From Cladocopium goreaui (Eukaryota; Sar; Dinophyceae; Suessiales; Symbiodiniaceae), in contig CAMXCT020000120.1 in NCBI GenBank assembly GCA_947184155.2, positions 62,001 through 126,000 on the forward strand: 64,000 nt of DNA, given 5' to 3'. This document shows, piece by piece, positions 25,410 through 63,930 of this stretch (positions are counted from its first letter, which is position 1; every line of letters begins with the position of its first letter). The translations under genes and the position numbers were made by a program. Below the pieces are notes generated by a model. That model was not told the DNA's origin. It did not search any database and saw nothing but the letters and a program-made list of their open reading frames with translations.

Positions 25410-26950
25410 TCAATCCGTTGCAACCCGTCTGATCTGCCACCGCCGTCTTCTTGCGGAGAGAGTATAGTTTAATTGCGAAAGAAAAAGATAGTTAATTGCG
25501 AAAGCTGATGTTGTCCGATTGCGAAAAAAAACATGGCTAATTGCGAAAAATGCCATGGGGATGAACTCGAAACTGTAGACGATACCACTCACCTCTGTTT
25601 TTTCTCTGCTGCATCCATTTGGAAAGGCTGAAGAAACGTTCCGATTCACGATGCTGTGCATTTGGTTTGATGCTTCTGCATCGTCGCACAAGGAACGGCA
25701 CAAAGAACGGCCCTTGATCTACGTCAAGCCGTGTGGCTCTTAGCACCAAAGCTGTCATTTCTTGGCATGCAATGTTTCAAATAATTTGAGATTTGTCTCT
25801 CAGAGGCATTACATTTCTGATAAAAAAAATGTGATAGAATTTTTTTCTCATGTCCTTCAACACTGCGCATGCACACGCCTAGGGGCGTCAGGGGCCCAGT
25901 TGGGACCTGATTCGGCATGAGCCAAAACCTGTGGGCGGCAGCTCTGCTGACAAACCAGATCTGTGCCGGGTTTGCAAGATTATGCCTGTAACTCATTCTT
26001 TCAGCATTGAATGAGGAATTTTCTCCCTTTTTTTGGTTGGCAATTTGATTCTACGTTTAGCTTTGTTTCCTTCCCAGCCGCCTGGTCTCTGTGTGCTGAG
26101 TGTCATACATAAGCGGAGAGCACTAAGTCAAATTGAAAATGCTGCGCGGGCCGTGCCGTTGGAGCAATGCCACATAAACAATCGTGGCAGGAAAAACAAG
26201 ATGAGCAAAAAAAATGAAAAAAAGGAGATTTCATTTCCTCTCTTTGGAGAAGCGGGACTGAAATTCATTTCTGTTTAGAAACTGGTTCTTTTGGATTTGC
26301 TAGGTTTGGATTCACGGCCAGACCGTGGCAGCTGCAAACGCAATCCACTGAAGCCTTCGCCGCCCTCCAGCTTTGTAAAGATGTTCACACAATGTAAGAT
26401 ATTGGTCAGAGATACAACAATATGTGACATTGATTTACATGGTACAAATTTTACTGCTATAACGTCTATAATAAAGATTATAGGATCTATATGTATCTAT
26501 GAGGCCATCGAGCTGTCGGGCCTTGAGCTGAGACCTTTTGCTCAGCCGTGTCAAGGCGCGGAATGCTTACGAGAACAACTTTTCTGCTAAGAACACCTCC
26601 CGGTTTGTTTGCGCGGATTTCCTAGACTTTGCGGATCCTCTGAGCTTGTTCCAAGTTGTTCCAAGTTGTTCCACTGATTCACAGATCGGTACAGTGCTAT
26701 CGATGTTTCCCTACCTGCCAGGTAAAAATATAGCTTTATTTAAAAAAAAAACACAACATAGTCTGATCTCTAATCAACAAACTGGCTCGTTAGAGATCTT
26801 GCGTTGTTTAATCTCGCGCCGGAGGAGGTAGGCCCAGCATAAAGGGGAGATCGCTGATGTCACTGGTGAGCCTTAGACAACAACAAGGGAATGGCCGCAC
26901 AAGTTCCGCACAATCTGCAAGTCTGCAAGTTCTTATATTTTTTTTTCTTT
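25410..26950. other. mixed stretch, no assignable gene
   Basis: Contains four spaced ATTGCGAAA words at 25455-25550, reminiscent of the 20-bp satellite, and one copy of a roughly 41-bp direct repeat at 25688-25728. Open minus-strand frames such as IWFVSRAAAHRFWLMPNQVP (about 25950-25890) may be exons, but I cannot assign them. Confidence 0.35.
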
Positions 26951-26955
26951 TCTTT

Positions 26956-27746
26956 CTAAGTCTCTGCGACATATGACACTTTGTGCATGCCTTGTAACCC
27001 CTGCTGCGAAGAGGTGCCAGCAATGGCATCATATATTGCAGAAGCCGAATCGTCAGCCTCCTGCTGCGACTTCTGCACGATATATTGCTGCTTCGGTCTC
27101 ACCCTCTTCGCATTGTGCCTCATGTCACTGCCACCATTTGCACTGGCATCAATCCAACAAAAAAAAATCACAATGGTTTATGCAAGATACGGCACCAGCT
27201 GTCCAACTGCCGTTTTGACCACACATTCCTTGCCGCCGATCCAGCGCAGTGGTCCTGGAGGCCCATGCCGTTTCTCGTCATACAGGTCCTGAGGCAGCTG
27301 TATGTCTGTCAGCTTTTTTCTCCTTGTTTGGGTCCAGTGCATTCCTCACCAAGAATGGTTAGACTGTGCTACCAAGAAGCTGCGGGCCAAACATCAAAGG
27401 CCTCGCTTTCCACTTCAAACCCGCAGCTGCTCACCAACGAAACACTCGCTGGCTGCTCTGCCATGTGATCACGGGCGATCTGGCCATCTGAGCTGCAGCA
27501 ATGCTCTTGCAACTGTTTCAAGAGCAGCGCCCGCAGTTTTTTGTCCTTGGCAAGCAGCCACAAGCTTTCCTGCGACTGATCCTTCAAGGCCAATGGCTTT
27601 CCAACTTGCAGTTTTGCATATCTTGCAACCTCGGCTTTCCCAGAAACCACACGACAGGCCATTGCATAGTCAATCTGATATCGAATCATTGTCTCCCGCA
27701 GCGCAAGGAACGGCACAAGGAACGGCCCTTGATCTACGTCATGCAA
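26956..27746 (-). CDS. unidentified minus-strand gene, at least three exons
   Basis: Exon-like frames follow one another. 27746-27385 reads DVDQGPFLVPFLALRETMIR, then KPLALKDQSQESLWLLAKDK, then KLRALLLKQLQEHCCSSDG. 27310-27185 reads QLPQDLYDEKRHGPPGPLRW then IGGKECVVKTAVGQLVPYL. 27120-26990 reads AKRVRPKQQYIVQKSQQEAD then SASAIYDAIAGTSSQQGL. The first exon borders the left 20-bp satellite array directly. No domain is recognised. The start of the first exon lies in a DNA word repeated near 25.7 kb (DVDQGPFFVPFL there), which may reflect an exon duplication. Confidence 0.45.
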
Positions 27747-28706
27747 TTGTTTCCCTTGCTGCGAAATTCTTTCCCTAGCTGCGACATTCTTTCCCTAGCT
27801 GCGAAATTGTTTCCCTAGCTGCGAAATTTGGTCGCAATTTTGCGAAATTGCTTCCCTAGCTGCGAATTTGCTTCCCTAGCTGCGAAATTGTTTCCCTAGC
27901 TGCGAACTTGTTTCCCTAGCTGCGAATTTGCTTCCCTAGCTGCGAATTTGCTTCCCTAGCTCCGAATTTGTTTCCCTAGCTGCGAAATTGTTTCCCTTGC
28001 TGCGAATTTGTTTCCCTAGCTGCGAATGTAGTTCCCTAGCTGCGAATTTGTTTCCCTAGCTGCGAATTTGCTTCCCTAGCTGCGAATTTGTTTCCCTTGC
28101 TGCGAAATTGCTTCCCTAGCTGCGAATTTGTTTCCCTAGCTGCGAATTTGCTTCCCTAGCTGCGAATTTGCTTCCCTAGCTGCGAAATTGTTTCCCTAGC
28201 TGCGAACTTGTTTCCCTAGCTGCGAATTTGCTTCCCTAGCTGCGAATTTGCTTCCCTAGCTGCGAAATTGTTTCCCTAGCTGCGAAATTGTTTCCCTAGC
28301 TGCGAATTTCCTTCCCTAGCTGCGAAATTGTTTCCCTAGCTGCGAATTTGTTTCCCTAGCGAAATTGCTTCGCAATTTTGCGAATTTGCTTCCCGAGCTG
28401 CGAATTTGTTTCCCTAGCTGCGAATTTGCTTCCCTAGCTGCGAAATTGTTTCCCTAGCTGCGAAATTGCTTCCCTAGCTGCGAAATTGTTTCCCTAGCTG
28501 CGAATTTGTTTCCCTAGCTGCGAAATTGCGCTTCGCCATTCTGCGAAATTGCTTCCCTAGCTGCGAATTTGTTTCCCTGCTCGTAGCTGCGAAATTCTTT
28601 CCCTTGCTGCGAAATTGTTTCCCTAGCTGCGAATTTGTTTCCCTAGCTGCGAATGTAGTTCCCTAGCTGCGAATTTGTTTCCTAGCTGCGAATTTGTTTC
28701 CCTAGG
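27742..28706. repeat. 20-bp satellite array, left copy
   Basis: About 48 head-to-tail copies of a 20-base unit, TTCCCTAGCTGCGAATTTGT, with recurrent variants: ending AATTGT or AATTGC, TTCCCTTGC for TTCCCTAGC, and GAATGTAG. Now and then a unit is replaced by a palindromic insert TTCGCAATTTTGCGAA (near 27830 and 28365; imperfect near 28530). Same unit, variants and orientation as the array at 40860-42560. Non-coding. Confidence 0.95.
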
Positions 28707-28985
28707 TAAGGTATACTAGGAGCCCATCATAATTTTGCACCCAATGATAAGGACAAGCAACTTTCACGACACATGGCCGGCAGCGTTCGCCGTTGGCGAA
28801 GCCCTCCCTCGTTTGATGCCACTGCACATCTGATGAGGAAACCGCTCCACATATGCGACAATTTTTCACCTGGAAGCTGGGCTTCGCTAAATGCCCCTGG
28901 TCAAGGTGACATTATCACAAGACAAAGTGCCAACATCACCAACGAACTCAAAAACACATAGACAGCCATCCAAGTATACCACATT
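28707..28985. other. spacer between satellite and HMG-box gene
   Basis: About 280 bases without a supported gene; short open frames on the plus strand are not convincing. Confidence 0.4.
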
Positions 28986-28989
28986 TACT

Positions 28990-30726
28990 CTTACCCACCT
29001 CTGGGCCTCGTTTCCTTTTTCTTGTTTCCCGGGGAAGTTGCGAGGCTTGGTTCTGTGGCTATTACTAAAATGTCTGGTTCTTCCAAACTCAGCGAAAAGA
29101 GAAGCTCCTCGTACTGTCGCTTGGACTTGGGACTCAAGTCACGCCACGCTGTAGCTGCCAATTTGGTCCACAAACCTCTCTTTGATCCATCCGCCTGGCT
29201 ATCTTCAGAAATCTATCTCCATACTCAAACACAACAGGCCAATGGAAGACATTGTTTCGCCTCTAGCTGCGACGCTTGCTTCACAAAATCGTTTTTCTTC
29301 TCTGTCAGGAAAAGTCCTCAGACCAAATTCCGCAATACTGAAAAAACAAAATTTCAATATCATGGAAGTTGTTGAAAAACCTCCAGCTACTGATATTCTT
29401 TTTGCCACATATCCTTCAGGTTGCAGAAGCCTAAGTCAGAGACCGTATGCTGAAGTCTGGGTGGAGGTCACTGGCGCTGCCTCGCCAGGGTTGACAACAC
29501 CAGCAGGTGCCCCCAGCGCAATATCAAGCCCGCCTGCTCGCCATCCAGTCTGGGTGCCTGTGCAAAAGAACAATGCACAACTCTTCATGTCAAGTCTCGA
29601 TTCACAGCAAATTCACAGCAAACGCCTTCTCTTGAGACTGTGCTGCCTTCTTCTCCGCTTTGCGTTTTGCTATGACCTCATGGAATATGACCACACCTTT
29701 CTCTGGCAGTACTTGCAAAAGAGAAAGTTTGTGCTTTGCCACAAAGACAAAGTGTGTGCTTTGCCAGATGGTTTCTGACAAGGCCCAGACTTCCTTTCCA
29801 CCACCCGTATGGTACCATTCCTGCCAGCGCATATATACTACTGCCAGTTACAAATGTGATTTGTCTGTCTACCAACACAACCTGGTGCAACACAGCCTGG
29901 TATTGCTGCATACGCTCAGCAGCCTCCACCTTCAAGGTCTGAAGCCACAAAGGACTGCATAAAACAAAGAAAGAAATAACTGGCCTCATACTTGTTCCGC
30001 TCTGCAGCAGGAAGCGCATCCCAATTTTTCTTGGCAATCAGCCTGGCATCACCTTTTTTCTGTCTCGGTTCCAGCTCGGCTTGCAATTGCACACGGAACT
30101 GCTGGTAGTAAAGACCTCAATAAAGATATCGGGACAGCATCTCTGGATTCAAAAAAGAAGAAAGACAGGCTCAGATCGGTTTACTCAGATAAGCACCAAA
30201 AGCTCCAGGTGGTCGCTTCGGTTCTGCGTTCGGAAGCGCAGTCTCTGAGGTCTCTGGTTGCTCCGGTGCTGCACCCAACAGGGCATCAGCTGAGGCCTCC
30301 TCATCAAATTAGCACATAATTTTGCTGTAAGATGTCGGATTCATTCACTAGATTTCTCTTTCAGAAAATGGAAGTACTGCAAGGAAATTGTCGAAGGAAG
30401 TTTAGAAGTCAAACTTCCGACAATATGGACAGATGAAAAGCAGAGCAGGGCAGAGGCACAGAGAGAAGAGGAAGATTAGAAGAGAGAAGATCAGAAGAGA
30501 AAGAGTAAGAGGACAGAAGATACAGATGCGCGAAAAGGTAGGAACGTCGTGAAACACTGTTTTTCCAATGATTTGTGCCTCCGGAGGGTCGAAAAGTAGG
30601 CTCGCTAAAGCGGCGGGTGCGGAGCCAGCTGGCCAGATGAGAGATGAAAAATTACACTACACTACCTTCCACTACACTTCACTACATTACACTACACGAC
30701 ATTCCACTAGATAGATAGGTAATTAG

Positions 30727-30757
<31 letters not shown>

Positions 30758-31460
30758 CGATAGATAAATACATAGATATAGTAGATCGGTAGGTAGGTAG
30801 GTAGATAGTCAGAGAAAAAGAGAGAAAGAGAGGAGACCTCAAGCACCTTTCGGTCCGTCAGTGGCTTCGCTCTGCCATCCCTGATTCACAACAACCAATC
30901 TCTCCTATAGGTTTCCTATTTTTGAAACTTCCGCCACTGCCTTGTGCGGTACTACTGGTATATGAGGTATGAAGGTTTGGTCGACGAGCTACAAGCAACT
31001 TCTCTGATTATAAAACGCAAAGACCGGCAATCTATCGATTGTTAATCAAACTTGCATCTTAGCTCGAATCCACTGGCCTTTTGGGTCGGACACAGAGCAC
31101 GGACAGCTTGACTAAAGGTTGTGACCTCTCACAACGAAAAAATATAGTCTCCATCAAGAAGCTGACAGCATGCAATGAACTGCATCCACCAATTTCAAGG
31201 CCCGCGCCTTGCACCAAATCTTCTGGCAGTGAATGAGTCCAAGTTCAGCTGGGGTAGCATCCAAGTCTAGAGGTTGCTGTGACCCTGACCTTGAAGTTGA
31301 GAGCCATCTTTATTTTCATCTTGAGCATACATTCAGTCAGCTGGCTGCTGGGAGCCGGACAAGCATAGCTCAACGACGTGATCTTCGGCCAGCTTTCTGT
31401 AGATCCGGTATGCGGTAGCAAACTTCCTGCAGAACCCCGCTTGTTCAATGAACCCGTGTC
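28990..31460 (-). CDS. HMG-box protein gene (multi-exon, minus strand)
   Basis: Two HMG-box-like regions are visible. The first begins PKRPPGAFGAYLSK at about 30225-30190, the classic start of an HMG box. It continues after an intron at 30110-29990 with YYQQFRVQLQAELEPRQKKG, then LIAKKNWDALPAAERNKYEA, which fits helices 2-3. The second, at 29195-29105, reads RGLWTKLAATAWRDLSPKSK then RQYEELL, the C-terminal half of a box. Other exon-like pieces are 31455-31330 (FIEQAGFCRKFATAYRIYRK), 29960-29890 (KVEAAERMQQYQAVLHQVVL), 29710-29610 (EVIAKRKAEKKAAQSQEKAF) and 29560-29450 (GLDIALGAPAGVVNPGEAAP). HMG boxes bind and bend DNA, so a chromatin role is likely. Exon limits and the start codon are inferred. 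Confidence 0.6.
30655..30830. repeat. ACTACA, (GA)n and GATA/GGTA microsatellites
   Basis: Consecutive low-complexity tracts: CTACACTACA words (30650-30710), (GA)n at about 30733-30760, and TAGGTAGGTAG at 30788-30808. Intronic or intergenic. Confidence 0.85.
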
Positions 31461-31778
31461 ATCTTTTGCTCTACCACTGCCACCCAAAAAGAGACCACCC
31501 AAACAATGAGATTGGAAATCAACCAACATGTGCAAAAGTCATGCTGGGGGTTCAAGCTGGTACGGATACAAAATGTATATAAAAAAAACTGTCGGTTCAC
31601 AACCCTCATCACAATGTTGAGGATAAAGTGTGCCTCATCTTCGACTCATTCCCAATTCGCAAGTACACCCTTCGGCAGTTCGAACACAAAAAAAAGGGCT
31701 TTCCGTGGAAGGCAGCAAATACAATTTCCCACCATCGATCGCAACTGCCATCAGGACGATTCTTCCCGGATCCTGCGC

Positions 31779-32445
31779 ACCCAGGCATGTCTCAACAATG
31801 CGCCACCATGGTGTTGGAATGAGGCCCGTCCTCCTCTGGAACCTGCTACAACGCACAACATGCAACTCAGCACACTTAACCAAAGAAAGGCCAGACCGGC
31901 CTCCATTCCTGCTGCATCAGCCTGCCACAGCGCACAACATGAAACTCAGCACACTGCACCCAGGCATGTCTCAACAATGCGCCACCATGGTGTTGTAATG
32001 AGGCCCGTCCTCCTCTTCCTCGTCCTCCTCACGAGGGTCAAGTTGCCCAGGTGGAACCTGCTACAACGCACAACATGCAACTCAGCACACTTAACCAAAG
32101 AAAGGCCGGGCCGGCCTCCATTCCTGCTGCATCAGCCTGCCACAGCGCACAACATGAAACTCAGCACACTGCACCCAGGCATGTCTCAGCAATGCGCCAC
32201 CATGGTGTTGTAATGCGGCCCGTCCTCCTCTTCCTCGTCCTCCTCACGAGGGTCAAGTTGCCCAGGTGGAACCTGCTACAACGCACAACATGCAACTCAG
32301 CACACTTAACCAAAGAAGGGCCGGGCCGGCCTCCATTCCTGTTGCATCAGCCTGCCACAGCGTACAACATGCAACTCAGCACACTTAACCAAAGAAGGGC
32401 CGGCCGGCCTCCATTCCTGCTGCATCAGCCTGCCATTCTAACATG
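31779..32445. repeat. long-unit tandem repeat (179/215 bp)
   Basis: Three and a half copies of a unit containing CAGGCATGTCTCAACAATGC, CCACCATGGTGTTG, TACAACGCACAACATG and CATTCCTGCTGCATCAGCC. Unit starts fall at 31782, 31961 and 32176. The first unit lacks a 36-base segment (TCCTCGTCCTCCTCACGAGG region) present in the later ones. Plus-strand frames of up to 235 codons run through it but look like repeat read-through. Confidence 0.85.
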
Positions 32446-32649
32446 AACAGATGTATTCCTGCAGCATTGGGACCCAACCCTGCCTCGACATCCATGGAAA
32501 GCAAAGATCGGACGCCAGAAAAAGAGTCAGGAGTCCAAGGAGCAGTCTTGTCATCCTGCGTGTCAGTTCGAAAATGAATTTCCACACACTGCTCAATAGC
32601 CGTGGAAGGCTAGCCTGTCCGAGCGAGGTCAGTAGCGAAGCTGCAGAGG

Positions 32650-33290
32650 CCTGACAACAACATTATTTTCTAGTTCAAGGTCCGAAAAAGATGAAAATAA
32701 GATCTTGTTCGAGCAAGCTGATTCCCTGCTGTTCTAACTCGCTGATCTTCATTCAACTTATTATGTTTGCCCCGGTTCTAATCTGGTTGTCGTTGTCTTT
32801 TCGATTTAGTGCCAGCGTTGAGTTTCACAAGGTGTACAGTCATTATAAATTTTGCATATTTAACCGCTGTAAAACCTTTCCTACAGAGCGCAAGCAATAA
32901 AATAAAAAACATCAATCCTCAATGTAGAAATTTCTGCTCTTAGAAGGATGTGAGGAGCTGCAGAGTCGCATACTTCGAAGGAGGAAATGCGCAATAATTA
33001 CCTGCCAGCCTGACGCCGCAAACGCTGCTCTTCTGTCAAGAAACCATTGTAGAGCCTCAAGTGAGAAAACAAACATAATTTTGGGTCAGGCCAAACTCAA
33101 AGCTCAACAGGTTAGCAGGTTGGTCACCAACAATGGGGGAAACAACCATGAACACAAAAGGGGCGAAACAAAACATATCAAGAAACTTCCATAGGTCTCA
33201 AGAAGGTTCGGTAAACATCAAACACCCCTGGAACAAACGATCATATATACAATACGTCCTCAGAGACGCGTCGAACGCTCGTTGAAATCA
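32650..33290. other. spacer, no clear gene
   Basis: AT-richer spacer between the long-unit repeat and the tandem duplication. Nothing recognisable. Confidence 0.4.
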
Positions 33291-33642
33291 CTGACAAGTC
33301 TGAAGTGCATCAAAAAGAAAACCAACATGAATGCAAACGGGTTCACTTCCGAAGTTCCTTCTTTTTCACGTGGGGAACTGAGTGGTTCGGAATCACAAGC
33401 CACATCGGTACGGTCTGAACTATGATCTGCACAAATGCTTCAAAATGTGTCAAAACATCTCACAACTGACAAGTCTGAAGTGCATCAAAAAGAAAACAAA
33501 CATGAATGCAAACGGGTTCACTTTTCTGAAGTTCCTTCTTTTTCACGTGGGGAACTGAGTGGTTCGGAATCACAAGCCACATCGGTACGGTCTGAACCAT
33601 GATCTGCACAAATGCTTCAAAATGTGTCAAAACATCTCACAA
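33291..33642. repeat. 175-bp tandem duplication
   Basis: The segment starting CTGACAAGTCTGAAGTGCAT at 33291 repeats from 33466 with only a few differences, ending at 33642. It lies just downstream of the transposase stop codon on the minus strand. Confidence 0.92.
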
Positions 33643-33762
33643 AATATCCTAAAATCTCCCCCGTGCCCAGAAGATTTACGGCTGCTTCATGTCTGGACAC
33701 AAATCACATGAGTTGGACAGACTTTGCCACCCAAACCGGACACTGCAGCTGCTCTTCCCACA

Positions 33763-36700
33763 TCATCGCTTGAAGTCTCGATTCATAGGGCCTCTGGCCA
33801 CTTTCTGGGCCGGGATCACCTGAGGCGCTGGCAGTGTGTCAGGCCGTTCTGGAGAAAGTGATCTCACGATGTCACTCCTCCGCACACCGCATTCAATGCC
33901 GACTCCGTCCAGTCGGTCCACATTGCTCATAGCTCGCGACAATGCGGTTCGGCTGTCAGGAGGTTCCCTCAGGGGGATAGGTCTCCTTGGGGTTGACTTG
34001 GCTACCTTCTTTGGCCTGGTCGGGCTACAGGAAGCTGTTCTGCGCTTTTTTTTTTCACCTGCATGCGCATCCTTCTGCAGTGGCATGGGAGTCGGGGACT
34101 CCAAGGAGCCCTGAAGCACAGCGATTGACCAACTGTGGGGACAATGACCCCGTCGTTGGTAGTACCAGCAAGAGCAGCTGATGGCCTTTGTTGTAGAATC
34201 CCAAACCAGAACTGAATGGTCCGACCAATAATGCCGAAGCTTTGGCAAGTCCACCTTCAGAGGTGCTTCTGGTTGGCCATCATCAGCCACTAACAGCACT
34301 TGATGCTCCCGCAGCAACTGCGCGAGCTCCTCGGGCTTCTTGGCGCGCAGCTGCGCTTGCCTGTGGGTCGACCGGAATTTCTTGGAGTCTGTCTTTTTGA
34401 ATGTATCGCAAGTGTGCGAACGTGAAAATGATCTGTGTGGACATGAGTTATGTCCCGCACATGGGTTTGAAAGCCATTCTATTAGAAATTCTATGAAGCA
34501 AGGATGCCAAGATACATTTGGCCAATCAATTGCGGCGTCATCACCTGTGGAACACCGAAGCTCATGAAAAACAACTTGCCCGAGGCAGTTGTTCGCTCGA
34601 AGATGTGTCCGTCCCTCAAGATCCTGGCGATGGATGGCAAAGACACCGTTCCCCACCCCGGCTCGTAGACATAATGGCAGTAGTCAGTCCACATCCAGTC
34701 ATCCGGTTGTGTGGGCACCAGGTTGTATGTCTTACTCATAAGCGTGTACGCTGCCTCTTCCTCTTCATCATCCCGAGGAGGCGAAGTCCACAATTTGATT
34801 GATTTTTCCAGCTCTGTGCAGATTTCCGGCAAGGTCTTGCCAGCCAGGCCTCTCAAGCCCGAGCCCAAGCAGCGCTTGAACTGCGCGTGGCTGGCTTCAG
34901 GCTGCTGCTGGGAACAGGCATGGCCGCAGCAAGAAAAGCTTTGAAGTCCGCACCACCAATGCGCCCATGTCATTTCATTCATCCCATACCTGATCTGACA
35001 CTCTTGAATGAGACGAGGAAAAATGGTGAGGGACACATTCATTCGAATATTGGGCTCATTAGAATCTGATGCTGAAATGTCAGACAAGGCGCTTCTCGGA
35101 AGTACATTTTTTCTTCCGCAAATACACACGTCTGACATACTCCTCAAACCGCACCGATCGCCAAACAAACTTCATTCTTGCAAAAAAAGTCTCCACGATG
35201 GTGTGGAACAAAGCCCAAGTGGGAAGCATTGCGCACGCAGCAAGCATCTGCTTGACATGGCTCATGGGCCGGTTTGGCTTTGGATTGGCTTTCTTCCTGA
35301 GGTTCTTCCATAAATGCTCAAGGTCTGTGATCGTAACAGCGGCATGCTTTTCAGCAATCTGCTCCAAGCCACTGAAATAGTCGCTGTGAATTTGACCTAG
35401 AGCCGGTAACCCTCTTCTGGCTGCCTCTTCCTTGCAAACTCTGAAGCCTTCATCGTAGCAAGAAGTATCCTCGATGTGATGCCGGATGGCCATGACAGGT
35501 AAACCGCTTTTGCGCCAATAGGCACCCAGCTTGCCAGAATCGAGTTTGCGATAGAGGGGAATAGTCAAGAGGCACCAAACCCATCCATCGATTTCCACAC
35601 GAAACGTGGTGTCAGCTGATAGGATCAGGACCTTCAAACTCTTCTCTCGGTGGACTTTTTCCTCGACGCTGCTCAAATGTGCAACCGTACCAAAAAAACA
35701 AGGTGGTCCAGAGAACCCAAAAGCAAAACGGCTCACAGCACGCTTTTTCTATGGCATTTTAGTGTCGTACCCCTTTATATATAGTTAAGTTGCAGCAAGC
35801 TATTTGCACGGTTTCCTGTCCGTCCAGCATGCTGCCTCGCTCCTTCGCAGCGAAGCTTTCCGCAAGCTATTTCCACGGTTTCCTGTCCGTCCAACATGCT
35901 GTCTCGCTCCTTCTCAGCGAAGCTTTCCTCAAGCTATTTCCATGCTTTCCTTTCCGTCCAGCATGCTGTCTCGCTCCTTCCCAGCGACCTGTCCGTCCAG
36001 CATGCTGCCTCGCTCCTTCCCAGCGAAGCTTTCCGCAAGCTATTTCCACGGTTTCCTGTCCGTCCAACATGCTGTCTCGCTCCTTCTCAGCGAAGCTTTC
36101 CTCAAGCTATTTCCATGCTTTCCTTTCCGTCCAGCATGCTGTCTCGCTCCTTCCCAGCGACCTGTCCGTCCAGCATGCTGCCTCGCTCCTTCCCAGCGAA
36201 GCTTTCCGCAAGCTATTTCCACGGTTTTGCTGTCCGTCCAACATGCTGTCTCGCTCCTTCCCAGCGAAGCTTTCCTCAAGCTATTTCCATGCTTTCCTTT
36301 CCGTCCAGCATGCTGTCTCGCTCCTTCCCAGCGACCTGTCCGTCCAGCATGCTGCCTCGCTCCTTCCCAGCGAAGCTCTCCGCAAGCTATTTCCACGGTT
36401 TCCTTTCCGTCCACCTCTCGTCCTCGCTCCCCCCGAGGCAAACGAGAAACTAAACGAGAACCCAAGCATCGGAGATGCTTTTGGGAAAAATGAAGATCCC
36501 TCATGCGCAGAAGCGGGAAACAGGAACCCTTGCTACGCATTCGGGAAAATGTTTGCCCACCCATCAAAAACTTGTCTGCAAAGAGATGAAAATGTCGGTT
36601 CACATTGGTTGTAAGTATTACTTTGCCTTCTTAGATAAAAAAAATGGATCAAAGGAAACAACACTTCTGTCTGCACCCGCGCCGAAAGACAACGGCTGCC

Positions 36701-37752
36701 CAGATGGGAGGAAGCAAAGCCAGGAACGAGCCCAAAGACCAGCCAGGCCGAGGATGGGGCACAAAGCAAATTGGAGACTCATCGCGATCCTGGCCGGAAA
36801 GATTCTGAAACACATGGAAACAGAGTGCAATCCTTTGAAGGGTAGTAAGCAAATCCATAAACAGGTTGAAGCTGACAAAACCATCGATAGACCTTGCTAC
36901 ATTCCCAGAAGGCCAGATCAAGATTGATGATATTAGCCAAAGTCAGCGCAACAACAAGAAGCAGCAGGGAACCTAAGCTGGATGTTCGGAGAAGGAAATA
37001 ATGAGGAAGCATGTTGGCTGATGTAGTGATACTGCCTGAAGATCCAATCCACCAACAAAACTTTTGAAGATTATTTGCAGATAGCGCGGACAACCTGCAA
37101 TCTCTTCCATCCAAACTACTCCCACCCTCTCCTGTCTTGATTCCACGTAGCGCTTCCAGTCATGAGACCATGTAAGAGGAGTATGTTTCTTCGATCTGCT
37201 TTTGCCAAAGATTTTCACCTTTCGGCGCCAACAGGCCTGCCGGAACTTCTTTGCATCCATGCCGAAAGGCTTTCCACCAGATGTTGAAGCAAGTTCCTTG
37301 GCCACCGTGCTCGGAAGAATCTTCTCTTCTTTGCGACGCAACCCATCTATGACTCGGTCGATGTCCGCCAACTCCTGCACCGTCGCTTCCTTTGGCTTCT
37401 CCGTCGCTTCCTTTGGCTTCTCACCTTTTCTCCGAATCCTGGGCTTGCCGCTGCAGTCACCTGCGGATTCAACCAGCAAACTGTACTCATTGCCGCTCTC
37501 CACATACTCATACCTGAACTGCTTTCCTCCAGAGGTGCCGCAGTCTGCACAAGCAATGCATCTGCCGACAGTCATTGTCGAAGCCCTACCTCTGCGGTAC
37601 GCCTTGCAAAAGCGGCCCACGACCAAGTTGTTCGCCTTGTTGAACCGCTTCACAATCTCCATGAAACTCTTCCGAGGCTCTGCCAGCGGGGCTTTCTCAG
37701 ATGAAAACTGTCGCCACGCCACTCGTTTCCTTTCGGCTGGCTCATCTTCCAT
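33763..37752 (-). CDS. MULE-type transposase with SWIM zinc finger, intron-interrupted
   Basis: Four coding blocks lie in order. 37752-37105 begins MEDEPAERKRVAWRQFSSEK and holds a Cys-rich CIACADCGTSGGKQFRYEY stretch, perhaps a FLYWCH/GCM1-like DNA-binding finger, then a basic linker. 35710-35090 is the transposase core, with LILSADTTFRVEIDGWVW (first Asp) and LPALGQIHSDYFSGLEQIA (second Asp), as in MULE DDE domains. 35010-34510 has MTWAHWWCGLQSF and QQQPEASHAQFKRCLG (candidate third acidic residue). 34410-33763 has the SWIM finger ISCSCWYYQRRGHCPHSW (CxC...CxH) and a basic tail to a TGA stop. The frames change between blocks, so introns or lesions separate them. The first gap holds a 173-bp higher-order repeat. 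Retained motifs suggest recent activity or domestication. Splice sites are not proven. Confidence 0.7.
35811..36415. repeat. 173-bp higher-order tandem repeat in transposase gene
   Basis: Built from three related subunits: A (67 bp, ...CTTTCCGCAAGCTATTTCC...), B (67 bp, ...CTTTCCTCAAGCTATTTCC...) and C (39 bp, a truncated unit ending CTTCCCAGCGA). They repeat as A-B-C, A-B-C, A-B-C, A'. All share CCGTCCAGCATGCTG. Long open frames on both strands are repeat read-through. Confidence 0.9.
36420..37100. other. gap between transposase blocks, content unclear
   Basis: Probably intronic. GC-richer DNA at 36650-36800 is open in several minus-strand frames, but none has MULE motifs. An exon carrying the part between the zinc finger and the first catalytic Asp might be hidden here. 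Confidence 0.3.
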
Positions 37753-37852
37753 CTGGATTGTCCTGGCTCTTTGTATCTGTGAAACGGTGTATCAGTTCAG
37801 CTGCCTGCTCTGCTCCACCCTAGCAACAGACACTCTGCTCCAGGTATGAACG

Positions 37853-38202
37853 GCTGACACGAAGGAAGCATGTCACGGCTGACACGAAGGAAGCATGTCA
37901 CATTGCAGTCACCCATCATAACTGATACGGAAACCTAACTGATACGGAAACCTCACAAGCAAGACTCAAAACCTAGTCTAAGTACATTCAATTCCTGTCT
38001 TTGCCTTTTGCGTCAAATTTATCCAATGTACTCAAATGTGACTACCTCGAAATGAGAAATACCTAACATTTTGCCATCTGTTTTGGACTGCTGCTGCAAG
38101 AAATCCATAGCGAAAGAAAACTCAGCTGTCTGCTGCTATCCCGATGTGAGCACGGTAGCAGCGGATGCACGTGTTCGGATTCTTGCCAAACGATGCACTT
38201 GA
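37853..38202. other. spacer between protease and transposase genes
   Basis: Contains a direct repeat ACGGCTGACACGAAGGAAGC at 37853 and 37877, and a doubled ACTGATACGGAAACCT at 37920-37953. No gene is evident. If the protease and transposase are one transcript, this would be intron. Confidence 0.5.
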
Positions 38203-38499
38203 ATGGGACTGTTCACACATTCAGTTCTAAACATACCCTGTCAAGATTACAATCAGCACATGTGTAGACACCGGATGGTAATTATTAGTATCTCAGATTT
38301 GTGTTTCACAATTGTCCCTGTCTTTCAACAACGCAAAGAGCAAAGGTGGGCTGAGGCACCCAGACTTTTCCGGGATCGTAGGTTTGATGTGGTGTTCCAA
38401 ATAGAGGCTCCACTTGGAATCATCCAACTCAGACCAGCCGAAGAACAATCCCAGGTGAAGCTTGCTACTTGTCGCGCTTGCCTATTTGAAGTCACTGAG

Positions 38500-41400
38500 G
38501 TTGGCACCTTTGCCGGCAACTGGTAGACAGCTATGTATGCCTGCAAGAATGCAATCAGGAGATACATGGCAGTGGGCCTAGCATCCGTTCACCAAATAAA
38601 AGTGTGAGTGTCTATGATCTGCAACCGTTCACCACAGAAAGGTGTGACGGTCTATGATCTGCAACCGTTCACCAGAGAAAGGTGCGAATGTGTATGTCTC
38701 TGAGTTTAGCAAGAAGTATTTGGCCGGATGGTTAGCAATAATCATTTAACCCCACAGAGACGGGAAGCAAAGGGCAAGCAAACTCTCACAATTCAGCTGC
38801 TCTGTCTCTATATTTGCGGGAGCCTCTGTTTTAAGCACCTCATCGAGTGATACCTCGATCGCATCTCAATGGTCAATGACAAAGCCAGAAAAAGGATACA
38901 AAGAACTGCAACATAACGCATCGCAAGCCCACCGCGCCTCAGTCCAGACCGTATCCGAAAACCGGTGCCAGAGGCCGCTTTGAGGATGTTTCACACTTGC
39001 AACATAGTGTCCAGACAGGACCGAGCCGCTGTGGTGGACCACCTGGCCCAAGAACTGGCTTTTCTAAAACAAATCCCTGGATATCCTTTGCTCCAGGACT
39101 GCACAAATAATCCCATTATGTAGATGATTCGAAAACATTTGTCATGTATGTATCGGTTTGATTCGCTGCACTGGCATTTTCTGGGTCTCCGACTGCTTGT
39201 AATTGGTACACGCCAATAGCAGCGGAAAGCACCACCTCTTGGCCAACTTTTTTCACCTTCTTCCTGCACCGAATCAAGCATCTCCACCCCATACATGCTA
39301 TCCCTGCACAAGAGTCTCAATCTGAGGATTTGAGGGTCAGGCTCGCTGCCGTCATAGACCGATTTTTTGAAGTTCAGTACGAGCACCTGCGAATCCAAAT
39401 TGCCGTGTCACACAATCACAACATCTCCATTTGCAACAACACCCAAGAAGGGCCTTCGGGCAGTGAGTGACATGGAGCTGCTTCTCGGAAGGGACCTTCT
39501 GCTGACAGCGCCAACACCTCCGAATCATCTATCAAGCACCCGTGCCATAGAAGAACATGCAATGGGCTGCAACATGCAAACAAACCTCATTGAAACTGCT
39601 AACAACTTGAGCTACCTTGGCTAGCTCTCCAACTGCACCTCCATAAGTTCTCAGCATCCAGCGTCTCCGTCTGAAAGAACGTTTTCAAACAATCCTGCCA
39701 GCAGTGCGCTTGAGCCGACCAATTTTCCATCTTATGTCCTAGCACAATGAACTCAAGTACTGGAATTCACTTGCTTCGGGCAAACCCCGGTGCCACATTC
39801 GAACATACTATATAGAACATACTATATATATAATATTCTGGCTAGCATTTTTGGCTTTACTTGTGAGTCCTTGAAATCTAACAACCCTCACCTTACATGT
39901 GAGAAAAACAATACACCCCGTACTATATGTTCAGCGATGGTTTCCGAACAACTCAGTCCTGCGCGGTACCATCTGCACTCTTGGCAACTTCTAGGTTTAG
40001 ATTCCACCACCTGGCAGGAATTATAGGGGAATGTTTGTGGAGAACAAAAGTCATGAAAACATGGCTGGTACACGTCTCAGATGAACTGGAAGATGCACCG
40101 CATTGCAGGCAGCGCACTTCAGACAAGTGCTTGCCCTGAAAAAGACAAGAGTCAAAACCGAAAGCGCCTGCCACCAGTGACGGCAACGTAACCAACCCTT
40201 GCCTCAAAAAGGCGCTTCACCACTGAGAACCCATCCTGCGCAGTGAACATTGCATTCTACCAGTGAAAGCACATTGTTTGATGTTTGCAATTTCATTGCG
40301 AAGGGATCCTGATGAAGACCATTGTGCAGCTTCTCAAGCAAAAAGGCAGCGAACTCCTGGCGCTGATTGGGAAGAGGAAATCGGAAATGTAATGCTTCTG
40401 CAAACAGTATATCCTGCGCATCCTGGAACCCGCTCATCTTCCCTTCATCCATCCTAATCGCACAGACGACACAGTGCGAGGCTGAATGAAAAATTATCAC
40501 AATGGGCGCAGACAGCTTGTCTTCAAGGAGAGCACTTTGAGCAGCGGACTTTTCGAGAAGACCGTAGAGATCTTCTACACTGGATGAAGCGCATCTCGTG
40601 CGCCAGATGCGGTGTTGCAGGAACTCATATGTCTGCACCACGGTTTTCAAAGGCCTGGCCAGCAAATTTCAGATGGAAAGCACAAGGCCTGAAACTGGAC
40701 CATTGACTACACCGCATCTGTTACTTTAGCTACGACTAGGATACCTTCATGCGAAGTCTATCACCCTAGCTGCGATACTGTTACCCTGGCTGCGCAAACA
40801 CTCCTTATATATTGGCGAATTCACCAGGATTCCTCCATTGCGAAACTGGAAGAAATCTGTTACCCTAGCTGCGAAATATCACAAACACGGCTAAAGCTCT
40901 TACCTTAGCTGCGAAACTGTTACCCTAGCTGCGAATTTGTTTCCCTAGCTGCGAATTTGTTTCCCTAGCTGCGAAATTGTTTCCCTAGCTGCGAATTTGC
41001 TTCCCTAGCTGCGAATTTGTTTCCCTAGCTGCGAAATTGTTTCCCTAGCTGCGAATTTGTTTCCCTAGTTCGCAATTTTGCGAAATTGCTTCCCTAGCTG
41101 CGAATTTGCTTCCCTAGCTGCGAATGTAGTTCCCTAGCTGCGAATTTGTTTCCCTAGCTGCGAAATTGTTTCCCTAGCTGCGAAATTGCTTCGCAATTTT
41201 GCGAAATTGCTTCCCTAGCTGCGAATTTGTTTCCATAGCTGCGAAATTGTTTCCCTAGCTGCGAATTTGTTTCCCTAGCTGCGAAATTGCTTCGCAATTG
41301 TGCGAAATTGCTTCCGAAATTGCTTCCGTAGCTTGCGAAATTGCTTCCCTAGCTGCGAATTTGCTTCCCTAGCTGCGAAATTGCTTCCCTAGCTTGCGAA

Positions 41401-43700
41401 TTTGCTTCCCTAGCTGCGAATTTGTTTCCCTAGCTGCGAAATTGCTTCCCTAGCTGCGAAATTGTTTCCCTAGCTGCGAAATTCTTTCCCTTGCTGCGAA
41501 ATTGTTTCCCTAGCTGCGAATTTGTTTCCCTAGCTGCGAAATTGCTTCCCTAGCTGCGAATTTGTTTCCCTAGCTGCGAAATTCTTTCCCTTGCTGCGAA
41601 ATTGTTTCCCTAGCTGCGAATGTAGTTCCCTAGCTGCGAATTTGCTTCCCTAGCTGCGAATTTGCTTCCCTAGCTGCGAATTTGTTTCCCTAGCTGCGAA
41701 ATTGTTTCCCTAGCTGCGAATTTGTTTCCCTAGCTGCGAAATTCTTTCCCTTGCTGCGAAATTGCTTCCCTAGCTGCGAATTTGTTTCCCTAGCTGCGAA
41801 TTTGCTTCCCTAGCTGCGAAATTGCTTCGCAATTCTGCGAAATTGCTTCCCTAGCTGCGAAATTGTTTCCCTAGCTGCGAAATTCTTTCCCTAGCTGCGA
41901 ATTTGCTTCCCTAGCTGCGAATTTGTTTCCCTAGCTGCGAATTTGTTTCCCTAGCTGCGAATTTGTTTCCCTAGCTGCGAAATTGCTTCGCAATTGTGCG
42001 AAATTGCTTCCCTAGCTCGAAATTGCTTCCGCAGCTTGCGAAATTGCTTCCCTAGCTGCGAATTTGCTTCCCTAGCTGCGAAATTCTTTCCCTTGCTGCG
42101 AAATTGTTTCCCTAGCTGCGAATGTGTTTCCCTAGCTGCGAATGTAGTTCCCTAGCTGCGAATTTGCTTCCCTAGCTGCGAATTTGCTTCCCTAGCTGCG
42201 AAATTGCTTCGCAATTCTGCGAAATTGCTTCCCTAGCTGCGAAATTGCTTCCCTAGCTGCGAATTTGTTTCCCTAGCTGCGAAATTCTTTCCCTTGCTGC
42301 GAAATTGTTTCCCTAGCTGCGAATTTGTTTCCCTAGCTGCGAATGTAGTTCCCTAGCTGCTGCGAAATTGTTTCCCTAGCTGCGAAAGTGCTTCCCTAGC
42401 TGCGAAATTCTTTCCCTTGCTGCGAAATTGTTTCCCTAGCTGCGAATTTGTTTCCCTAGCTGCGAATGTAGTTCCCTAGCTGCGAATTTGTTTCCCTAGC
42501 TGCGAATTTGCTTCCCTAGCTGCGAATTTGTTTCCCTTGCTGCGAAATTGCTTCCCTAGCTTAATTGCAAACCAGTGCTCTGTGCAAGTCTCGTGTCTGA
42601 CCAGAATGAACGAAAAAATGAGCATATTTCCTGCAACAACCGCAAAATATCTGTGTTGATTCCAGACTTTGTCAAAGCACACTGCTTCCATTCAAAATCA
42701 GGCCGGAGCACTCATCGGCTTGTCCATTCTGAAGGTCCTAGGATGAAATGTGGGGACGGTCTGAGAGACTGCTGCTATGAAAACATCGAACCAAACTTCT
42801 CACGGGAGCGACTCATCCACTCGGCAGTCCTTCATCCATTCGCCGCAGAGAAAGTATTGCGTCAGAAAACTGATGCTGGTGAGCACTTGGATTACAGCGT
42901 TGAGGTAGCAGGTTGCACCGCCGTTCTGCAGGCCCGTTTTGCCACCCGTTGCAGCATGGATGTAGACATTGGAACCGTCTTCATACCTGGGACTCTTGCT
43001 TGCTCTGTAAACTTGCTGGAGAGTCGTGCTTGGTGTGAACAGAAGGGTTCCCAAGACACTGGTCCGAGGAAGCTACCGTGATAGCACCGGTTGCCACAAC
43101 ACCTTGAAAAACCATATCTTGTCAACTAAATCTGTTGAAATCCGACTGATGAAAACCGACCAATCTCTTTAGGCATGGACCCACTCATCCTCATCATCTG
43201 GCACATCCGCCAGGAGCCCTGCGTCCCAAGCCTGGCAAAACTATTTCTAAGAAGGAAGCCATCTCTCTATTCCGCAACGTTACAGTCAGCCCATTGTGTG
43301 GAATCGTTCCTTTAACAGCGCAGGGTAGCCTGCTTTCAATCATTGGAATGGATGTTCACACGACGCCCCGACCCACCTGCTTTTCTTCTTCTTGTCCTCC
43401 CGCCTGTGAAGATAAGGCGTAGTCACGCAAACAGTGATGCTCTCCATGGCTGTTTGAACACTGGCTTCTCGAAAGCAATTGGAATCGAAACGCAGGCCTC
43501 CAGGTCGATAGTCCTTGACTGCATGCATAGTTCACCATCTTTCACTTCCTAACACAAATGTTGCAAATGTCAAATCCAATACAGGTGTCAAATCCAACTA
43601 GTTCTTTTTTACGACAGTTCCAGTGCGTCCTCGGCAGTAACTAAAGGCGAATTCCACGGCCACCGTTTCACAGGTGGTGTATGTGGTGACTCATCCTGAC
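38500..43700 (-). CDS. ubiquitin-specific protease (peptidase C19), multi-exon
   Basis: The conserved USP blocks occur in order on the minus strand. The Cys box TGLQNGGATCYLNAVIQVL (about 42940-42880, catalytic Cys codon at 42908-42910) is in an exon starting after CTCCAG near 43015. At 40665-40204, LYGLLEKSAAQSALLED and later QRQEFAAFLLEKLHNGL match the QQDAxEF helix. At 40137-40050, SEVRCLQCGASSSSSET is half of the zinc ribbon. At 39388-39290, VLVLNFKKS is the core strand. At 39260-39205, GQEVVLSAAIGVYQLQA joins at 39042-38940 to VVHHSGSVLSGHYVASVKH and LWHRFSDTVWTE, the His box. At 38540, AYIAVYQLPAK is the last strand. Upstream pieces at 43690-43140 (RTIDLEACVSIPIAFEKPVF; LLADVPDDEDEWVHA) may be N-terminal exons. 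The enzyme would remove ubiquitin from proteins. A 1.7-kb satellite fills the intron after the Cys box. Exon limits are approximate. Confidence 0.75.
38580..38700. repeat. ~40-bp tandem repeat, three copies
   Basis: Three copies of a unit with CCGTTCACCA...AAAGGTGTGA...TCTATGATCTGCAA, inside the protease gene between the His-box exon and the last-strand exon. Confidence 0.8.
40733..42560. repeat. 20-bp satellite array, right copy (protease intron)
   Basis: About 85 copies of the TTCCCTAGCTGCGAATTTGT unit, preceded at 40733-40930 by decayed relatives (CACCCTAGCTGCGATACTG and similar). The palindromic insert TTCGCAATTTTGCGAA or close variants recur at about 41067, 41190, 41292, 41827, 41989 and 42209. 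A GAATGTAG variant recurs at several places. Orientation and variants are as in the 27.7-kb array. Lies between the Cys-box and QQDAxEF-like blocks of the USP gene. Confidence 0.95.
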
Positions 43701-43904
43701 AACTCTAATGGCAATCCAACAAAAACTCTGCTCATTTTCTCTTGATTGTGAAATCTGTGCTATGTCTGTCAAATGATTGCCTTACGCATGAAATCCAGCC
43801 CTATGTTTGACTTGGGTCCCATCCTGGTCGAGACACGCCCTGAACCCCGAATCAGATTTTGTTCTTAACCCCGAATTTAGTCAAATAGTTGTGGGACCTT
43901 GAGA

Positions 43905-44680
43905 TATTCAAATTTCAGCCACGTAGCTTGAGATTCCAGCCCCGTAGCTTGAGATACCTTGAGATACTCAAATTCCAGCCCCGTAGCTTAAGTCACCAGT
44001 GCAATTCCAGCCCCGTAGCTTGAGATACCAGCTCCATGGCTTGAAATACCAGCCCTGTAGCTTGAGATACCAGCCCCCTAGCTTGAGCTACCTTGAGATA
44101 CCAACCCCCTAGCTTGAGATAGCTTGAGATACTCAAATTCAGGCCCCGTAGCTTGAGATACCTTGAGATACTCAAATAACGGCCCCGTAGCTTGAGATAC
44201 CTTGAGATACTCAAATAACGGCCCCGTAGCTTGAGATACCTTGAGATACTCAAATAACGGCCCCGTAGCTTGAGATACCTTGAGATACTAAAATTCCAGC
44301 CCCGTAGCTTGAGATACCTTGAGATACTCAAATTCCAGCCCCGTAGCTTAAGACACCAGTGCAATTCCAGCCCCGTAGCTTGAGATACCTTGAGATACTC
44401 AAATTCCAGCCCCGTAGCTCAAGTCACCAGTGCAATTCCAGCCCCGTAGCTTGAGATACCTTGAGATACTCAAATTCCAGCCCCGTAGCTTAAGTCACCA
44501 GTGCAATTCCAGCCCCGTAGCTTAAGTCACCAGTGCAATTCCAGCCCCGTAGCTTGAGATACCAGCTCCATGGCTTGAAATACCAGCCCTGTAGCTTGAG
44601 ATACCTTGAGATACCAGCCCCCTAGCTTGAGATACCTTGAGATACCAACCCCCTAGCTTGAGATAGCTTGAGATTCATAG
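43905..44680. repeat. ~39-bp tandem repeat array (CCCCGTAGCTTGAGATACC)
   Basis: Roughly 20 imperfect units built from CCAGCCCCGTAGCTTGAGA, TACCTTGAGATACTCAAATT and an alternative AAGTCACCAGTGCAATTCC tail, arranged with higher-order mixing. A 123-codon minus-strand frame through it is an artefact. Confidence 0.92.
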
Positions 44681-44689
44681 TTGAGGAAA

Positions 44690-45490
44690 GTACGCTTCGG
44701 GGTTAAGAAAAGTTAAGCGCTTTGCTGCATCCTGGTCTGCCTCCTCCATTGGCAAAGGCAAAGGAGGAAAGCCACGTTTGCGCCGCGATCGATTCAACTT
44801 TTGCACGGCCTGCCACCATGCGAGTTCGATTGTTACTATGAAAACAAGCTCACCGAGTTATCCAGTTGGTCAAAAATCCGATTAAGAAACACCCAGCCTG
44901 GATTTGTCTGGCCAGTTCTTCACCAGCCAGCGAACCCATCACACGCGGCATCGCGCATGTTTCTGCACCACATGCTGCAGCCACAATGAGCAACGATTGA
45001 GGCACGGCGCATGTTTTTTCACCAAACGATCCCAAATCCCAGAACATTTCTGAATCACTGTGGTATCTGGTACTGCTATTCGCATTTAGTCGACATGCAC
45101 TTTTCGTAATTAGGAATTAGCATTCGCTATTAGAAACGGCTTTTCGTAATTAGACAATACACTGTCTTGCGGAAGTCCGCGCAAATTGCTTAGCAGCAGG
45201 TTGCAGCTGATGGGACAATTTTGGAGCGGGTCGGGTTTGGAAGAATTGTTTGGCAATTGCACCTGGTAGAAAATCTGGGACCTATTTTAGCCTGGTAGAA
45301 TGTGAGCTTCCAATCAACTGGACCAAAACCATACCACCTATATAAAGTCTATCAGGCCTGGGCCATCAGTCTCATGTATTGAATCTGCGATGTCGTACCA
45401 TAGGAGAAAAATGCAGTACAACTCCAGCTGCTTGGGTCTACAGTGATCTACAGTAATTAATCCAACATTGTTTCCAACATATCCATCCAT
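44690..45490. other. non-coding stretch, no clear gene
   Basis: No motif-bearing frame. GTAATTAG words recur near 45095-45160 (TTTTCGTAATTAG twice). Confidence 0.4.
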
Positions 45491-46328: not shown

Positions 46329-46872
46329 ATATGTCAATATATGGCTAATTTATGAATCTATGAATTATTAATTTGTTTAAGGTTTCTGTATTGTTAGATG
46401 ATTATATATATATGGGAAATAAGGTGTTTGGCTACAGCTCCCCACGCCACGTACCAAACCCTTAGCGGATCGTCGAAGCCACGGTTCGCGGGCGCTGCTG
46501 CTTCAGCACTCCAGCGCCTTTTTTGTCTTGTGCTCTGTAACTCCTGTGCAGAGTTACATCACCTTGGCTTCTCTTCTTCGTCTTCACCGTTAAGGACATC
46601 TTGAACCTTGCGGCGCCTGACGACCAGGACTTCACGGTGTATGCCTCTTACCTTGTTGGCCTTCCTCATCCTCATTTCGTTCACTGTCGGTAAGAATTAC
46701 TCCTTCACAGAGACGCGCGGGTCGAAGGGCACGAGCTCGAGCAAGACTCAGGCTCCACTTGCACAAAAGAGGTTTGTGCCTGCTGGACAATCAAAGCTTG
46801 CATCGAATCTGGACCACACTCCAAAGCCATCACTCGCGAGACCCGGGTCTTTTTCGCAAAATCAAAGAAGCT

Positions 46873-48000
46873 ATGGCTTCTCAGAAGAGACCTTCCTGGA
46901 GATGTGCGGACTGTCGGAGGCTTATCAAAGGCAACGACATGTTCTGCCCGGCATGTGGACAACATTGGGAAGATTGTGCAGACACAGAGTATCTGGATCC
47001 GAATGCGCAGATGCCCCAACGTGCGCAGACTCCGACCAGACATACTTCTTATCGCAGCTACACTCAGGGAGGCTCCCAATGGGATGGGTGGCACTACCAC
47101 AATTCCTCCAGTGCAAGCCCGAGAAGAAGACAGCAAAAACCGAAATCGCAAAAACATCGACAAGGAGATGGCAAAGCGGGTGGCAGCAAAGGCAAGGGAA
47201 AAGGTGGCCAAACTATGAGCCTTGGAATGGGACAAGAAGGGATGGCACCTCTCCCGCCACCACCCATGCCTCCACCGACGGGCAACACAGACTCATGGAT
47301 GCAATTTGCAACGCCATTTCCACCTTCTGTTGGACCAGCCCAAGAAGCTCCCAGACACAGTCATTCACTTGCAGAATCGAAGCTGAAAGAAGTCATGGGA
47401 ATACTCAAGAAGAACGAGATGGAGCTCCCAGCAGAAGTTGCAGCGGTGATGAAGGACACGAAGGTCCAAGAAGGCATGCAGAAGATCCAAGGGATGCACG
47501 AGGCAGTGGAAAACCTTGGAGACGCACAACAAAGGCTAGAACAGGTTTGCTTCGCCCGAGCCCAAAATCTTGCCTCTTGGAGACAATTCCTGCATCTCTC
47601 TGTGCAACGATGGCAGGAGTATACACAGAGATTTCAGAGCCAGGAAAAGAGCAACCTGGAGCAGATTGCCAAAGCCAGGGAAGATGTCAAAAAAGCACAG
47701 GCGATTTTCCGCGAGCTACAAGACCGGGGAGTCATCACCATCGAAGCGGAGGACGACCCGGCCATGCAGGACGACGTGCTCATGAATATGGAAAGCTCCA
47801 AGAAGATCGAGGACGGGCTCACGCACCTCACGACATCTCTTGGAGAGTTTGCACAACAAGCAGACCAGGAGCATGCAGCCGCGGAAGAACAGCAAAAGAA
47901 GCGTCAGAGAAAAGAAGAATCACAGGAGGGCGCACCAGCAGGATCCAAGCCTTTGGCCTCACCGTCTATGCAGCCTTTTGGCGGGGCTCACAGTGGATGA
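46873..48000 (+). CDS. LINE ORF1: zinc-ribbon, basic and coiled-coil protein
   Basis: 375 codons from ATG at 46873 (MASQKRPSWRC). Residues about 10-35 form a C-x2-C...C-x2-C zinc ribbon (CADCRRLI...FCPACGQHW). Residues 75-115 are Gln/Arg/Lys/Gly-rich and likely bind RNA, followed by a proline-rich linker (LPPPPMPPPTG). Residues about 150-350 are charged and helical with Gln/Glu/Lys spacing typical of coiled coil (LEQIAKAREDVKKAQAIFRE). The tail is Lys/Arg-rich. This layout suits a LINE ORF1 RNA chaperone. The frame stays open upstream to 46759, but the chosen Met gives a sensible start directly before the zinc ribbon. A 753-codon frame overlaps it in another phase. Confidence 0.7.
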   Translation: MASQKRPSWRCADCRRLIKGNDMFCPACGQHWEDCADTEYLDPNAQMPQRAQTPTRHTSYRSYTQGGSQWDGWHYHNSSSASPRRRQQKPKSQKHRQGDGKAGGSKGKGKGGQTMSLGMGQEGMAPLPPPPMPPPTGNTDSWMQFATPFPPSVGPAQEAPRHSHSLAESKLKEVMGILKKNEMELPAEVAAVMKDTKVQEGMQKIQGMHEAVENLGDAQQRLEQVCFARAQNLASWRQFLHLSVQRWQEYTQRFQSQEKSNLEQIAKAREDVKKAQAIFRELQDRGVITIEAEDDPAMQDDVLMNMESSKKIEDGLTHLTTSLGEFAQQADQEHAAAEEQQKKRQRKEESQEGAPAGSKPLASPSMQPFGGAHSG

Positions 48001-48430
48001 CTCCTGAGTATCCCTGTGGACAGCCCGCCACGTCGCCACACTTGGTGGATTTCACCGTTGGTTGGACGCATTCGATCGTGTCTGAAGAGGACTTCTTATC
48101 GCCTTGGGATGCCTCATCACGTGCTTTGGAGCTTTCATTTGAACTCTGCACGTTGCCTGCTTTGGGATGCAGGCACAATACCATTGGCCCCGAGGATTTT
48201 GGCACAGAGCGCAGGAATGATCGAACCATGGACAGTCGATCACTACGTTTTTGTGATGATGTTGAAGTCCTACTTGGCATGGAGGACTGCTTGAGTATGG
48301 TTTCTGATGTTGTACGTCATCAAGATCTATGTCAGGCGACGAAGAAACCTTGGGGATGGTTTTTCAGCAGTGACACTTGGATGTACGACCATGACAAGGA
48401 CCTCTACAAGCCTTTGAAAGTGAATCGGTC

Positions 48431-51862: not shown

Positions 51863-51894
51863 CCGGGCCGTGGTACTAGAAGGGGCATACACAT

Positions 51895-57546: not shown

Positions 57547-57780
57547 GTAAGTTATTATTGCTTTACTAACTAGATCTTAACTATATGCTAAGTACCTCCT
57601 AACTGATTACTAATCCTTGTAACTTACCTAATGTTTTAAACATAGTTACTATTTTTTTTAATAATTGTTAGCTAACCATCTTAAAGATCTTAAGAGAACA
57701 TTAACTACTTAGTGAAGTTAGCTAAGCACTTAGACTAAACCAGCTAATTAGTTAGCTGAGTTAGTTAGATTAAAAACATG
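57547..57780. repeat. TAACTA / TTAGTTA-rich tract at LINE 3' end
   Basis: About 230 bases made of short related words (AGTTAAGTAAG, ACTAACTAG, GTTAGCTAA, TAATTAGTTAGCTGAG), starting at the abrupt end of LINE coding sequence (GTTTTAGTAACTACTTGC from 57520). The far end, reverse-complemented, begins GTTTTTAATCTAACTAACTC and loosely mirrors the start. It could be a foldback element or a degenerate minisatellite. Confidence 0.5.
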
Positions 57781-63905: not shown

Positions 63906-63930
63906 TTGGTTTCTTAAAAAATACCAACAA

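Follow-up and report, generated by a model that had tools for sequence, protein, structure and literature searches.

A ubiquitin-specific protease gene and a predicted Mutator-like transposase gene in what is very probably one DNA transposon of Cladocopium goreaui

In a 64,000-nucleotide stretch of the dinoflagellate Cladocopium goreaui (positions 62,001 to 126,000 of contig CAMXCT020000120.1, here called C120; the whole stretch is hereafter the window), a predicted gene for a C19 ubiquitin-specific protease (USP) lies beside one resembling the transposases of Mutator-like elements (MULEs). Do the two genes belong to a single mobile element? A sequence-only reading of the window had raised this idea, had stated that no terminal inverted repeats were found, and had advised a search for such repeats and for 8–11 bp target duplications at 25–46 kb. 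The search returned one pair with an exact 9-bp duplication, and inverted ends are thus present after all, at 25458 and 45164. Both genes lie between them and the termini recur on contigs C233 and C922, which bears out the proposal of a shared element. We consider it highly probable that one element at 25458–45164 holds both the USP and the transposase genes, and this element is most likely a large cut-and-paste DNA transposon of the Mutator-like type. Its features are as follows.

25458..45164, minus strand (both genes on this strand): proposed whole transposon, 19,707 bp, from inverted ends and an exact 9-bp duplication
25449..25457, no strand: left copy of the target-site duplication, TCTTGCGGA, from the scan for inverted ends
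45165..45173, no strand: right copy of the target-site duplication, TCTTGCGGA, from the same scan
25458..25575, plus strand: left terminus, in which a TAATTGCGAAA-type motif is repeated (TAATT[AG]CGAAA in exact form at 25470, 25493 and 25538)
45024..45164, minus strand: right terminus with the TAATTGCGAAA-type motif inverted (at 45102 and 45142)
38328..42986, minus strand: USP (C19) gene, nine exons, splice sites by eye, start codon not fixed
33763..37752, minus strand: predicted MULE-like DDE transposase gene, 736 amino acids, spliced by eye
40906..42561, no strand: 20-bp tandem array in USP intron 1
27747..28705, no strand: second array of the 20-bp unit seen in USP intron 1, near the left end

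The scan for ends asked for inverted 20-base arms that agree at 15 or more positions and are bordered by an exact direct repeat of 8–11 bp. Its single hit in the real sequence was the pair 25458/45164 with the 9-bp repeat TCTTGCGGA, and shuffled-sequence controls gave a hit in 0 of 10 cases and, in a second set, in 1 of 60. Position 25458 is also the exact edge of homology to a second copy, on contig C5424, which had been found before the scan was made. Further, 104 kb of C120 contain five exact copies of TAATT[AG]CGAAA, all no more than 91 bp from a terminus: the left end has three of them and the right end the other two, in inverted form. Candidate ends closer to the range given by the sequence-only reading, namely eight short inverted pairs (14–24 nt) in 33000–38600, were taken as chance. 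GC content is 0.39–0.45 in 1–25457 vs. 0.46–0.52 to the right, and this change falls near the transposon's left end.

Copies of the left end were then sought in the genome from which the window comes (1.17 Gb, 6,202 contigs). Left-end DNA was present at at least nine places, some of them partial: C120 (the window), C5424, C4079, C922, C3493, C233, C4001 (34 bases), C788 (78% identical) and C5514 (internal part only). Eight of the nine matches start at terminal base 1 or 2, and both ends were present at three places, the window, C233 and C922. The C233 element is 626 bp long and has both termini, the right one 92% identical over 141 bases, and an exact 9-bp duplication, CCTCTGGGA; that on C922, also with both termini, measures 1,485 bp, has a duplication agreeing at 8 of 9 bases and consists mostly of a 20-bp array, 88% like that of USP intron 1. 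Because these short elements carry both ends with duplications of their own, the two termini move together, and in the window the two genes lie between them. Neither USP nor transposase was found in the examined stretches of C922 and C4079 (best E 0.79). On C4079, the nine bases that follow the left end are seen again at L031:588; the right end, however, was not found in the examined stretch, and the candidate was rejected. On C3493 (L033 1493–1750), a 236-bp left-end piece stands between exact 11-bp direct repeats, CCATGACACCG, which looks like the insertion of a single end. For C3493, C4001, C788 and C5514, the analysis covered loci of 3 kb.

With regard to the protease, the exons of the USP gene are as follows.

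42986-42804, 40654-40261, 40135-39970, 39738-39639, 39517-39454, 39386-39270, 39042-38950, 38853-38824 and 38540-38328, minus strand: USP exons

These nine open exons join in consistent phase, each segment begins with G after AG, and of the eight introns six start with a GT donor and two with a GC donor. In Symbiodiniaceae, 25–74% of donors are GC or GA (PMC11453091). The joined protein (401 amino acids) matched the Pfam UCH profile PF00443 with E=2.9e-25 over positions 1–254 of 254, as well as USP domains in the PDB (best USP15, E=2.4e-19). The active-site boxes were read by eye as GATCYLN (Cys), GHYVA (His) and RFSDT (Asp), and the window copy has both the frame and these boxes intact. The predicted protease is therefore a real C19 USP with a UCH domain; both its location, put at 43.0–38.5 kb by the sequence-only reading, and its assignment to the C19 ubiquitin type rather than to ULP1 hold, the whole UCH profile being matched.

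The transposase gene starts close by, and its exons are given next.

37752-37126, 35661-35141, 34989-34545 and 34380-33763, minus strand: predicted transposase exons, the last acceptor being one of several possible

The sequence-only reading had placed a MULE transposase within ~0.8 kb of the protease on the same strand. The strand and distance stand (USP stop at ~38325, transposase ATG at 37752, a gap of ~0.57 kb), and motifs of the family can be read by eye, but no Pfam MULE match accompanies them, and the label MULE is therefore one given by motif. The candidate catalytic residues D226, D303 and E414 follow the order D, D, E, 77 and 111 apart, and a Cys-rich N-terminus, HLxxNL after the second D and a SWIM-type CxCx8CxH were recognized. 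We regard the four-exon protein as a likely transposase on these motifs. Two matches at E ~0.09 in a PDB search with this protein were taken as chance, and no relative of its exon B was seen in viral contigs. The suggestion that USP and transposase form one fused gene, for example by a phase-0 splice, is disfavoured, since the N-terminus of a distant paralog aligns with the predicted transposase's own ATG.

Exon B of the transposase was found at at least seven places, a lower bound as 150 of 371 candidates were scored: the window, the near-identical C5424 copy and five distant matches at 23–24%. The distant paralog thus stands at five loci (L003–L007), of which L003, L005 and L006 are ~99.4% alike over the whole locus and L004 and L007 resemble the others over parts only. 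At the C2180 and C3223 loci, repeated arrays mark the end of the shared block, and no termini were found in 14 kb each by a similar scan asking for 14 of 20 matches. Around two of the five paralog loci, stretches of 14 kb, one of which reads N in part, were searched for USP and none was seen (best E 0.17), which also tells against a fused gene.

The copy on C5424 corresponds to window positions 25458 to ~42732 in reverse orientation. Both places with a close transposase core (two of the seven matches) also hold USP exon 2 (2/2), and the search of the genome with this exon returned these two places only, the window and C5424 (8/8 candidates scored). Over 6,314 aligned gene-region bases, tandem arrays excluded, the copies differ by 10 substitutions and two gap columns. 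Once matches inside the two 20-bp arrays were dropped, the flanks beyond the shared block (45 + 41 kb of C120; 53 + 26 kb of C5424) showed no match at E 1e-20. C5424 was accordingly rejected as an allele, only scattered repeats of ~100–150 bp being shared, and its upper edge (window ~42732) was rejected as an element end, as it falls in USP intron 1. Where the copies part (C5424 92711–93000), many insertions of one to a few bases relative to the window were seen, possibly an assembly fault. C5424 also has 11,116 extra bases at 101870–112985 (L014, L015), flanked by 31-bp direct repeats with one mismatch, of which the window has one copy. Some frames of this insert resemble a DDE transposase by eye and its internal repeats are 97–99% alike; the one frame run against Pfam had no match.

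How might such an element work? The ends, motifs and duplications are observed, and which protein acts on them is inferred. The four-exon DDE/SWIM-type protein would serve as the transposase, binding the TAATTGCGAAA-type motifs repeated at each end and leaving 9-bp target duplications, and the short copies, which keep the ends only, would by analogy be moved in trans by it. The USP may deubiquitinate the transposase or host proteins limiting the element; it may keep the proteasome from degrading the transposase or repair factors, or relieve silencing. Based on the analogy with Ulp1-carrying MULEs and deubiquitinase-carrying Helitrons, we give a USP that helps the element a little less than an even chance, slightly likelier than any other single reading. 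More tentatively still, we propose that a Mutator-like transposon recruited a true C19 deubiquitinase as an accessory gene, which would protect the transposase or counter silencing, and that the pair travels in autonomous copies.

Several points weigh against this interpretation. The end scan alone is modest evidence, because one of the 60 shuffles also gave a hit, and the inverted ends agree at 15 of 20 bases in the scan, or 18 of 25 by manual count. Both genes and both ends occur together in one copy only, that of the window. USP exon 1 had no match in C5424 40001–150000, the transposon right end was not found in the examined stretch of that contig, and the coding differences there comprise seven substitutions, all nonsynonymous, and a one-base deletion; because all seven change a residue, including the first Cys of the SWIM-type motif (by eye), this copy looks decayed. 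The splice sites of both genes were picked by eye, those of the USP to fit the USP family, so that its open frame counts as evidence that is only partly independent. The joined transposase matched no MULE (PF10551), SWIM or FLYWCH profile of Pfam at E ≤ 10, neither did its pieces nor those of the paralog, and the predicted structure of exon B reached a pLDDT of 35.9, too low to use. Finally, the role of the USP in transposition is inferred by analogy only.

Nearly as likely as a USP helping the element is a USP that is a passenger, that is, a host gene captured once in Pack-MULE style and carried along with no part in transposition. Its nine exons are host-gene-like, its exon 2 was found nowhere in the genome but in the window and on C5424, there are short elements lacking the USP, and the C5424 copy lacks exon 1 and has coding changes that are all nonsynonymous. 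This contrasts with the intact frame and active-site boxes of the window copy and with the presence of USP exon 2 at both places that have a close transposase core. The exon 2 search gave no host source either, but this says little because exon 2 is poorly conserved.

The remaining alternatives concern the element rather than the role of its protease. That the two are chance neighbours or two domesticated genes is very improbable. Two same-strand genes 0.6 kb apart need no shared element, given that dinoflagellate genes lie in co-oriented clusters (mostly unidirectional; PMC11453091), and a transposase with introns and one other close copy would suit domestication; however, the termini that enclose both genes have an exact 9-bp duplication, and the paired termini recur elsewhere with duplications of their own. 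It is unlikely, too, that the element is real but its transposase is a member of a different DDE superfamily, known or undescribed, that also makes 9-bp duplications. The failure of the protein and of the paralog pieces to match Pfam MULE would be explained in this way, whereas the 9-bp duplication, the D, D, E residues spaced 77 and 111, HLxxNL, CxCx8CxH and the Cys-rich N-terminus argue for a MULE. Target-site duplications of MULEs are 8–11 bp long, mostly 9, and that D-D-E spacing, the two motifs and the Cys-rich N-terminus are MULE marks. The Mutator-like assignment is also consistent with the inverted terminal motifs and with a 9-bp duplication that is exact in the window and on C233 and agrees at 8 of 9 bases on C922.

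To the right of the transposon, three long plus-strand open reading frames (ORFs) at 46605–57546 form an apparent retroelement, with weak matches to RNase H and an endonuclease match whose E=1.2e-4 does not reach the curated cut-off. At the end of the last of them, a motif like that of methyltransferases (HLFAG...GPPCETWS) was read by eye; this piece, an approximate query with two wrong letters at its start, had no Pfam match. From ~57,500–64,000 on to ~70,000 (C120 ~119.5–132 kb), ~12 kb with sharp edges has a CpG observed/expected ratio of ~0.05, the other examined 2-kb bins of C120 having 0.42–0.88, with one at 0.26. The window part of this CpG-poor stretch holds three long plus-strand ORFs with no Pfam match at E 0.1.

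To our knowledge, few large DNA transposons have been described in detail in dinoflagellate genomes, and this element would add a defined one. The C19 USP is a protease type rarely seen in transposons, and no MULE with a C19 protease was named in the literature searched, most subscription papers being outside its reach. If our proposal is true, a MULE-like element with C19 would be a further, separate case beside the transposons with Ulp1, OTU or VTD proteases, and the removal of ubiquitin or SUMO would appear as a repeated need of DNA transposons. The mapped ends, the short partners and the intact-looking gene pair make this idea testable.

PMC2836005 records Mutator elements with Ulp1, Ginger and Helitrons with OTU, and a Transposase_11–C19 protein of Trichomonas. 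The closest parallels are Ulp1-carrying Mutator-like elements (the KIU/Kaonashi VANDALs of Arabidopsis, and others in melon, rice and grapevine and in hydra, lancelet and maize), which likewise have a cysteine protease of the ubiquitin/SUMO pathway (PMC13317346 and PMC2836005). Ulp1-carrying VANDALs relieve silencing, the role of Ulp1 itself there being given as not known (PMC13317346). The protease of such elements is Ulp1, of the SUMO type, whereas that of the window is a C19 USP of the ubiquitin type encoded by a separate multi-exon gene; KIU elements are termed non-TIR (lacking terminal inverted repeats), in contrast to the short inverted ends found here. Ginger1 and Helitrons with OTU, Ulp1 or VTD proteases also carry ubiquitin/SUMO proteases inside DNA transposons, and Helitron deubiquitinases have been proposed to shield transposition proteins from the proteasome (PMC9741609); their transposition enzymes and protease families differ from those of the window element. 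A C19 domain together with a transposase, as in the window, is found in Trichomonas vaginalis XP_001314237.1 (Transposase_11–Peptidase C19; PMC2836005). There, however, both domains are part of one protein and the transposase is from a different superfamily (pfam01609), whereas the window has two genes, a MULE-like transposase, and mapped ends with a target-site duplication.

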